Shown here: positions 21,820 to 23,960 of the stretch, piece after piece
How the letters are laid out: each line of letters opens with the position of its first letter
How positions within the stretch are numbered: position 1 is the first letter of the stretch
Source of the DNA: Planctomycetota bacterium
Lineage (GTDB): Bacteria; Planctomycetota; UBA1135; GCA-002686595
Direction: 5' to 3'
DNA length: 64,000 nt
NCBI GenBank assembly: GCA_029259655.1
Contig: JAJDET010000010.1
Coordinates: forward strand, 1-64,000
Program-made: the position numbers and the translations under genes
The notes under the pieces: model-generated
Databases searched by the model: none
What the model saw: only the letters and a program-made list of their open reading frames with translations
What the model was told of the DNA's origin: nothing

Positions 21820-21848
21820 GCGAACCCGTGAGGGATGCGGGCTAGAGG
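21820..21848. repeat. 29-bp repeat shared with the region before REP copy B
   Basis: This 29-base segment matches 62393-62421 at about 25 positions and ends in GATGCGGGCTAGAGG in both. Here it includes the stop codon of the ATP-grasp gene. Just left of it (21783-21801) is a small GC-rich hairpin (GGCCGGC, loop GCA, GCCGGCC). The 152-bp gap 21690-21841 holds nothing else recognisable. Confidence 0.6.
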
Positions 21849-22717
21849 CGCGCGAGGAGCGACTCCGCCAGCCGCGCCGCGGCGCCGGGACCGTGGCGCA
21901 GGAAGAGCGACGGCTCGACGAGCTCGAGCTCGTTCAGGAGGAGCCCTCCGTCGTCCGCGCGGAGGAAGTCGACCCTGGCGTACAGGAGAGTGCCGCCGAA
22001 GCGGTCCTCGACCGGGGCAACGATCGAGCGCGCGAGGTCCAGCTCGCCGGGTTCGAACTCGTACGGTCGGTCCAGGGCACCGAAATCGTCCTGCACGCGG
22101 TAGTCCCCCGCCACGGGGAGCTTCTGCACGCCGTGGGTCGGCTCCCCGTCGACGAAGAGCACGGACAGCTCTCCCTCCGTCTCGACGCTCGCGAGGTAGG
22201 GCTGCAGCAAGAGGTCCTCCTCGAGGAGCAGGCGCTCGAGGTGGGCCTGGGCTTGTGCGATCCCATCCGCGTCGGCCGCGAACCGCAGCGTCTCCCGTGC
22301 CGTCGCACCGACGCAGGGCTTGACGAAGGCGCGCTCCCAGCCGCGCGCCGCGAGAACGGCAGCGACATCGACGTCCTGTCCGCGTTCGAGCCACTCGGTC
22401 GGCGCGATTCGCACCCCCAGGGCTTCCAGCTCTCGCAAGTATTGCTTGTGCGTGTTCCAGCGCACGACCGCGGCCGGGTTGAAGAGCGGCGCGGCGGCGC
22501 CGGCGCGTTCAGCCCAGGCGAGGTACTCGGTGCAGTGCTCCTGATAGTCCCAGGTCGTTCGGATCAAGCACGCGTCGTGCGAGCTCCAGTCGACGTCCGG
22601 ATCGCCCCACGCCGGCTGAACGACGTCCGCGCCGCGCTCGAGGAGCGCCCGGACCAGCGGCCGGTCGTCCACCTCCCAGTCGGGGACGGTTGCGCAGGTC
22701 GCCAGAGCGATCCGCAT
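21842..22717 (-). CDS. ATP-grasp enzyme, DcsG/RimK-like
   Basis: This 291-aa ATP-grasp ligase starts at ATG 22717 (MRIALATCATVPDWEVD); the longer open frame is not real. RTTWDYQEH, WNTHKQYLRELE, AFVKPCVGATARET and the metal-site LLLNELELVEPSLFL follow the pattern of the cycloserine ligase DcsG and related proteins, which join an amino group to a carboxylate using ATP. The substrate is unknown. The gene starts only four bases after the stop of the thioredoxin/PDZ selenoprotein candidate, so both are probably co-transcribed. The stop codon lies in a short dispersed repeat. Confidence 0.85.
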   Translation of the reverse strand: MRIALATCATVPDWEVDDRPLVRALLERGADVVQPAWGDPDVDWSSHDACLIRTTWDYQEHCTEYLAWAERAGAAAPLFNPAAVVRWNTHKQYLRELEALGVRIAPTEWLERGQDVDVAAVLAARGWERAFVKPCVGATARETLRFAADADGIAQAQAHLERLLLEEDLLLQPYLASVETEGELSVLFVDGEPTHGVQKLPVAGDYRVQDDFGALDRPYEFEPGELDLARSIVAPVEDRFGGTLLYARVDFLRADDGGLLLNELELVEPSLFLRHGPGAAARLAESLLARL

Positions 22718-22721
22718 GGGA

Positions 22722-23960
22722 CTATCCCGGGACGACGATGCGCACGGTCTTGCGCTCGCCGCCGCGCAGCAACTCGACTTCCACCGTGTCTCCGGGCTCG
22801 TGCTCGAAGCACCACCACGCGTGGAGCTCGCCCTGGTTCTCGAAGTCGCTCCGGCCACCGGCCGACACGACCACGTCTCCCTTCTTGATTCCGGCGGACC
22901 TGGCCGCCGGCCCGTAGAGATCCTTCGCGACGATGTACTTCACGGTGAACGCGAACGCGCCCGGCTCGAGTCCGAGCGCCTCCTTGTCCTCCGCGGAGAG
23001 GTCGCGGCCGCCGAACCCCACGCGGGGATCGAGGTCCCATTTGTGCGGGCGCCAGGAGTACTCGAGCGGTAGGGGCGCCTTCCACCCGGGCGCGAGGACC
23101 AGCTCGCCCGTGCGCTTCTCGCCGGCGCGGACGTATTCCAGGGCGACCGTACTCCCCGCCGTCGGCAGACCGTCGAGCACCCAGGAGACGTCCGTGGCCG
23201 TGAGCACCGGCTGGTTCGCGAGCGCGACCAGCTCGTCCCCCACCGCGAGTCCGGCGAGGGCGGCGGGCGAGCCCTCCGCCACGGCGGTGATCCGGTTCTG
23301 CACGACCGGTGCCACCTCGATCCCGATACGCCGGGGAGGCGGACACACGAACGCGTCCTCCAGGTTCCAGGTCTTCGCTGCGCGGGCCTCGTCCGCGAAG
23401 GCCGACCGCACGCTGTGGCAGTGGATGCACTTGCCCTTGTCCTTCACGACGAAGGAGGGGACGTCCTCCAGGCGGACCGGCGGGTCGAACGTCGGCGGGT
23501 CGGGAGCCTCCGAGTACTCCGCGTGCCGCTCGAGCCCCGCGGTCAGGAAGGCCGCGTAGGACTCCTCTCCGAGCCAAACGCCGGCCGAGCTGTGATCCCG
23601 CCCGCCATAGCGGTGATAGGTCGTTCCGTCCGCGTGCATGACGAGCGCCGAGAACGTGAGCCCGGTGTCGAACCGGTAGCGCGAGAGGTCCACGCCGCGC
23701 ATGTCGGTCACGCGCACGCAGACGTACTGGTCATAGAGCTCGCGGAGAGTCGGTGTGGGACGGACGACCTGCCCGTCGAAGGACGTACAGTCCTTTCAGG
23801 TCTCTCAGCGAAAGACGACCAGCATCGGCCGGCTGCTCTGCGCGGCGACTTCTTCGCCGCGCTCGAGGTCCAGGTACCAGAAGTCCTGCATCTCCGGCTT
23901 CGACGGCGCGCACGCCGCGAAGCCGAGTGCTATCGCGGTAGGAGCGAGGAGGCGGATCAT
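22722..23960 (-). CDS. Candidate selenoprotein: lipoprotein with UxxU thioredoxin-like domain, CxxCH site and PDZ domains
   Basis: From ATG 23960 the frame runs 413 codons to TAG at 22722 with two internal UGA codons, at 52 and 55. Read as selenocysteine they give VVFR-U-ET-U-KDC, exactly where a thioredoxin CxxC would sit after the strand RPMLVVFR. N-terminal signal MIRLLAPTAIALGFAAC has a lipobox. The thioredoxin-like half continues with LRELYDQYVCVRVTD and GLTFSALVMHADGT. Then GKCIHCHSV is a possible haem-binding CxxCH. From about residue 215 two PDZ-like segments follow (SPAALAGLAVGDELVAL, AARSAGIKKGDVVVSAGG). Hairpins follow both UGAs (separate entries). Without recoding only the part from about 23717 on would be translated. 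Co-transcribed with the ATP-grasp gene. No sel gene is visible, so recoding is inferred. Confidence 0.75.
23759..23777 (-). promoter_or_regulatory. Possible SECIS hairpin downstream of UGA codon 55
   Basis: On the coding strand GACGG (5 bp) pairs with CCGUC around loop GCAGGUCGU. The loop begins 24 bases after the second UGA, within the range for bacterial SECIS elements, and holds GGUC as in the E. coli fdhF loop. Folded by hand; it competes with the lower stem of the neighbouring hairpin. Confidence 0.4.
23766..23802 (-). promoter_or_regulatory. Possible SECIS hairpin downstream of UGA codon 52
   Basis: Two bases after the first UGA, stem GACCUG/CAGGUC, then an asymmetric internal loop (A against CGACGGG), then upper stem AAGGAC/GUCCUU with loop UGUAC. 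The apical loop starts about 16 bases after the UGA and holds a GU pair of bases as SelB-bound loops do. Folded by hand. Confidence 0.45.

Follow-up and report, generated by a model that had tools for sequence, protein, structure and literature searches.

In the stretch of 64,000 nucleotides that was analysed (the window), one gene of the minus strand probably encodes a protein with two selenocysteines (Sec) in a UxxU active site, read by means of tandem SECIS elements with one hairpin for each UGA. In its domains the gene does not depart from the selenoprotein family, already known, to which it belongs, and its two-Sec form is uncatalogued in the literature that was covered. There is good comparative evidence, drawn from the homologous sequences, for a second SECIS-like hairpin that is tied to the presumed possession of two Sec residues, and this extra hairpin apparently arose so that two nearly adjacent UGAs can both be read as Sec. 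The basis of the work is computational and comprises the frame, the family, the Sec genes, the hairpins and the association of the hairpins with the UGAs. The features of the gene are collected in Table 1.

Table 1. Features of the two-UGA gene and of its product.
Feature	Position	Strand	Basis
Trx7/PDZ selenoprotein gene, UxxU form, 412 aa	22722..23960	-	one frame with two TGA; NF041199, 375 bits
N-terminal export signal, weak lipobox FAAC at residues 14-17	23901..23960	-	sequence
Thioredoxin_7 domain, residues 28-104	23649..23879	-	PF13899, 39.4 bits, cut-off 27; AlphaFold model
UGA codon 52, first Sec of U-E-T-U (predicted)	23805..23807	-	Cys or UGA in 206/206 homologues
UGA codon 55, second Sec of U-E-T-U (predicted)	23796..23798	-	Cys or UGA in 206/206 homologues
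Hairpin A, AAGGAC-UGUAC-GUCCUU, putative SECIS for the first UGA	23779..23795	-	specific to UxxU genes
Hairpin B, GACGGGC-AGGUC-GUCCGUC, putative SECIS for the second UGA	23759..23777	-	UxxU and CxxU genes
C-I-H-C-H motif, residues 178-182	23415..23429	-	CxxCH in 206/206 homologues
PDZ domain 1, residues 212-286	23103..23327	-	Pfam; Foldseek matches to DegQ/DegP and RseP PDZ tandems
PDZ domain 2, about residues 347-410	22731..22922	-	NF041199, Pfam, AlphaFold model, fold search

When TGA is read as U, the region 22722-23960 forms a single frame in which TGA occurs only at codons 52 and 55, as had been claimed in an earlier reading made without database searches (the sequence-only reading); the frame has 412 residues and terminates at a TAG. 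The translation begins MIRLLAPTAIALGFAACAP and continues later with LVVFRUETUKDCTSFDGQ, CIHCH and two successive PDZ domains, the context of the active site being RPMLVVFR-U-E-T-U-KDC. TGA is the commonest stop in the window, where it ends 29 of the 43 long ORFs that pass a filter on GC3 and overlap, so that the genetic code is standard and the TGAs of codons 52 and 55 are special; a changed genetic code was ruled out on this ground. Directly downstream (21842-22717, minus strand) lies an ATP-grasp gene that resembles D-cycloserine synthetase with 204.8 bits, which is below the cut-off of 360. An ATP-grasp gene was looked for beside the homologues of the trx7/PDZ gene and was not found there, and the operon was dropped as a clue to function because this neighbour is not conserved.

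The protein matches NCBIfam NF041199, the "Trx7/PDZ domain-containing (seleno)protein" (trx7_PDZ_seleno), with 375.1 bits against a cut-off of 300, over positions 3-388 of the 390 of the profile (358.6 bits with the stops read through). Since the cut-off is exceeded, the UxxU gene is a variant inside this family and not outside it. The selenoprotein that the sequence-only reading had called new thus belongs to a curated family, first seen in 2008 in marine metagenomes (GOS) as a "putative secreted serine protease MucD" with the motif CxxU (PMC2398784) and since then catalogued (PMC13188914). The 2026 catalogue enters the Trx7/PDZ protein as CxxU with 1 Sec and does not list a UxxU form (PMC13188914). 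With the catalogued protein the window gene has in common the Thioredoxin_7 and PDZ domains, the presumed Sec at the second active-site position and a SECIS-like element downstream, but its UxxU does not match the catalogued one-Sec CxxU motif and is accompanied by a second hairpin. No record of the two-Sec UxxU form of NF041199 was found in the openly available papers that were covered. The VPGUxxT thioredoxin-like (seleno)proteins NF041382 and NF041383 are also named by NCBI as thioredoxin-like Sec proteins, but the window protein scores 13 bits against their cut-offs of 350 and 275 and the motif is different.

The thioredoxin-like half, the CxxCH and the two PDZ segments that had been read from the letters were all recovered at the positions of Table 1. 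Pfam finds PF13899 followed by PF13180, with two PDZ stretches, above the gathering scores, and the AlphaFold model is confident (pLDDT 92.7, pTM 0.89). In the fold search the first half resembles the DsbD C-terminal-like and AGR2/ERp18 thioredoxin folds and the second half the PDZ tandems of DegQ/DegP and RseP, from which the window protein differs in having no protease domain. No solved relative combining these folds with a CxxCH was found among the fold-search matches. The protein is a possible lipoprotein, as proposed earlier: F-A-A-C at residues 14-17 fits a lipobox only approximately, and a crude pattern finds lipobox-like motifs rarely among the homologues (14 of 206). In the N-terminal alignment A3 the invariant positions are the two of the active site together with C178, H180, C181 and H182. 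The C-x-H-C-H motif is as invariant as the active site, and conservation of its middle His is not what a plain haem c motif usually shows; no c-type cytochrome is among the best fold matches of the N-terminal half. This motif, which sits at the start of a helix, could serve as a haem or metal site or as a second thiol pair. The domains suggest that the protein is exported and reduces or isomerises disulfides, with the PDZ domains holding the substrates.

Homologues with CxxC or UxxU, for which the sequence-only reading had proposed a search, proved to be abundant. The 206 distinct homologues, nearly all of them from Planctomycetota and Poribacteria as judged by record titles and search scope, divide into 89 UxxU, 56 CxxU, 61 CxxC and 0 UxxC, proportions that are not natural frequencies because the sample was enriched for UGA-bearing genes. 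Every one of these genes has Cys or UGA at both active-site positions, with no third residue at the first position, so that the placement of the UGAs is not due to chance, and they do fall at the two cysteines of a thioredoxin CxxC as had been supposed. The absence of UxxC among the 145 Sec genes is informative. Adjacent paralogues may differ in their redox pair, as in a UxxU next to a CxxU (L203) and a UxxU next to a CxxC (L250); L203, L250, L241 and L243 all hold adjacent paralogues, either with differing pairs or as two UxxU copies in a row. In L257, what looks like a third TGA was rejected as a third Sec, the frame being lost there.

The search for sel genes, also proposed beforehand, found selA, selB, selC (tRNA-Sec) and selD above cut-off in the genome of the window. 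The tRNA-Sec scores 73 bits against a cut-off of 47 and has the anticodon UCA. SelD is itself a Sec protein (PAGGU-ARKL; L010, minus strand, about 1253-2260), and this second UGA gene is consistent with a working Sec system. The selA gene (484 bits) carries an in-frame TAG (L021:4524-4570, contig C34 of the same genome). Odd residues are found there by the PLP lysine, V*DAVKDAVDVVSFSGVK against VRDAVKSGIDVVTFSGDK in relatives, with SGVK replacing SGDK, and the site contains a short repeat, GACGCCGTG AAG GACGCCGTG, which suggests that the TAG is an assembly fault; a real lesion of the gene is possible. In 154 genomes of the same class, selA was found in 143 and tRNA-Sec in 138. Moreover selB is present in 66 of the 76 genomes of the phylum sample with a UGA-bearing copy against 13 of the 44 with CxxC copies only (Fisher p 2.6e-10; genomes tallied manually from a listing). 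The ten UGA-bearing genomes without a selB match are assemblies estimated to be at most 88% complete. We regard it as almost certain that the UGAs of the NF041199 family encode Sec. That both active-site positions are Sec, as the sequence-only reading had proposed, is very likely, and is supported by the standard code, the Sec genes, the Cys homologues and the SECIS-like hairpins.

The two hairpins lie at 23759-23795, inside the range 23700-23830 that had been indicated for a SECIS search. Published criteria for a bacterial SECIS (bSECIS) include a loop of 3-9 nt, a stem of 4-16 bp, a spacing of 16-37 nt, a G in the first two loop positions and a folding energy of at most -7.5 kcal/mol (PMC13188914). 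Hairpin B (7 bp, loop AGGUC, -10.1 kcal/mol) begins its loop 25 nt after UGA55 and 34 nt after UGA52, and agrees with every one of these for UGA55 and also, at 34 nt, for UGA52. Hairpin A (6 bp, loop UGUAC with G second) has stem and loop within the limits for UGA52, its spacing of 15 nt and its energy of -6.1 kcal/mol being just outside. Counting the first base of UGA52 as 0, A pairs 12-17 with 23-28 and B pairs 30-37 with 41-48, so that hairpin A is squeezed in between UGA55 and hairpin B, with the codon of Cys58 inside its loop. A search of the region against Rfam gave chance matches only and no matching family. We take the apical CAGGU of hairpin B to resemble the loop of the fdhF SECIS. 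As in SECIS elements of the fdhF type, hairpin B lies directly downstream in the coding region at a spacing within 16-37 nt, but here the hairpins are in tandem, with one placed between the second UGA and the other hairpin.

The distribution of the hairpins follows the redox pair. Hairpin B is found in UxxU and CxxU genes and not in CxxC genes, and hairpin A only in UxxU genes. Folding energies were compared with a null in which synonymous codons were shuffled from each gene's own usage with the protein fixed. For hairpin B they are -9.5 against -4.0 in UxxU, -9.2 against -4.4 in CxxU and -2.0 against -1.8 in CxxC genes, and the genes that fall below their own null number 89/89, 56/56 and 32/61, respectively. 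The corresponding energies for hairpin A are -5.1 against -2.1, -1.6 against -1.5 and -1.1 against -0.9, with 87/89 UxxU, 29/56 CxxU and 24/61 CxxC genes below their null. In genes whose A seems poor when the register is fixed, the hairpin is frequently shifted but still in place, as in GCUGGU-UGC-ACCAGC. Compensatory changes are seen in both helices: pairing holds in 86.9% of the cells of a small alignment, against 34-48% once the columns are slid by 1-3, and cells changed on both sides of a helix number 17 against 6.1 in shuffles.

The spacing is also regular, as the loop of hairpin B begins 25-26 nt after the second UGA in all 89 UxxU genes, and that of hairpin A begins most commonly (54/89) 16 nt after the first UGA and usually has a G as its first or second base. 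Nearly every loop B of a Sec gene reads CAG and then GU or UU, and the Gln codon in it is CAG in 137 of 137, against 7 CAA and 6 CAG in the Cys genes that have Gln there. At this position, 12 past the first active-site residue (residue 64 in the window), the Sec forms nearly always have Gln(CAG) and the Cys forms mostly Asp or Glu. The residue at this position thus seems to be imposed by the RNA element.

As homologues share history, a tree was built in order to test the association of the hairpins (FastTree, 201 genes, the two active-site residues left out); being unrooted, it gives no direction of change. It requires 26 state changes, mostly between CxxU and UxxU. Among the 14 supported independent pairs that differ in UxxU against CxxU, hairpin A changes in the same direction in 8.9 and in the opposite direction in 1.1, with 4.0 ties (median p 0.02). 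The comparison of Sec against Cys with hairpin B has 4 independent pairs, nearly all agreeing, which are too few for significance. We lean to the view that bacteria decode near-adjacent UGAs through tandem SECIS elements, the second hairpin having come or gone along with the first Sec on many occasions within a single family and in a fixed order, with the second position being Sec whenever the first is. NF041115, an independent UxxU family, was sought as a second test of tandem hairpins, and none was over the cut-off in 343 Planctomycetota genomes.

The main rival to one hairpin per UGA is a shared SECIS, in which both UGAs are Sec and hairpin B alone serves both, hairpin A slowing the ribosome or spacing B as a helper that SelB does not bind. 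Lying 34 nt after UGA52 (34-35 nt in the family), within the published range of 16-37 nt (PMC13188914), B could indeed serve both codons; it is stronger and better conserved than A, most genes have an fdhF-like CAGGU in its loop, and the energy of A falls short of the published limit. The lack of any UxxC gene among the 206 is likewise what one would expect if the first UGA depended on the machinery of the second. Nevertheless selection on hairpin A is confined to genes that have the first UGA, its energy being below the synonymous null specifically in UxxU genes, and its usual 16 nt spacing and early loop G are those of the bSECIS model. We consequently favour one hairpin per UGA and find the shared SECIS unlikely. 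That UGA55 alone is Sec, UGA52 being a regulated stop or read by another tRNA, is very improbable: the single Sec of CxxU at the second position is common (56/206), but the first position is solely Cys or UGA, TGA is the usual stop in the window and every Sec product of the gene requires readthrough of UGA52, which precedes UGA55. Still less credible is a start at GTG 23717, or UGAs that are sequencing errors or pseudogene decay (the first two being doubts already raised in the sequence-only reading), for although mechanical ORF calling reports a 331-aa ORF from that codon and the TAG in selA could mean a lapsed Sec system in the strain, P45, R51 and both active-site positions are conserved upstream of 23717, 88 further distinct genes have UGA at both codons and hairpins A and B are intact in the window, so that family-wide this explanation is already contradicted. 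Of the conditions that the sequence-only reading had named as refuting it, none was found to hold, the TAG within selA being the one exception.

With one hairpin for each UGA, the insertion of Sec, the matching of hairpins to codons and the redox function that we infer would fit together as follows. The product would be an exported oxidoreductase with a thioredoxin fold, a CxxCH and a double PDZ, having Sec at both positions of U52-E-T-U55. SelB and tRNA-Sec would decode both UGAs, hairpin B being the bacterial SECIS common to the one-Sec CxxU members and serving UGA55, and hairpin A serving UGA52 and so making the SECIS a tandem one. The two Sec may form a diselenide or selenol pair, reducing or isomerising disulfides of substrates bound by the PDZ domains.

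In fish SelL, decoding takes place via a SECIS in the 3'UTR. The Prx-like and SelL-type UxxU selenoproteins likewise have two Sec in a thioredoxin-fold active site (PMC2398784, PMC13188914), but they are separate families (AhpC-TSA or Prx-like) without PDZ. No account of tandem SECIS in the bacterial proteins of these types was found in the literature covered.

A bacterial SECIS must sit just 3' of its UGA, within the coding region, so that the same piece of RNA is contested by UGAs that lie nine bases from each other. No described answer to how two such close bacterial UGAs are both read was found in the literature covered. The NF041199 family offers many natural contrasts between one-Sec and two-Sec forms in which one hairpin is gained or lost in step, so that reporters could address the question directly. 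It also provides a large natural set of UxxU oxidoreductases for diselenide chemistry, in a family of which the existing catalogue (PMC13188914) covers only the one-Sec form.
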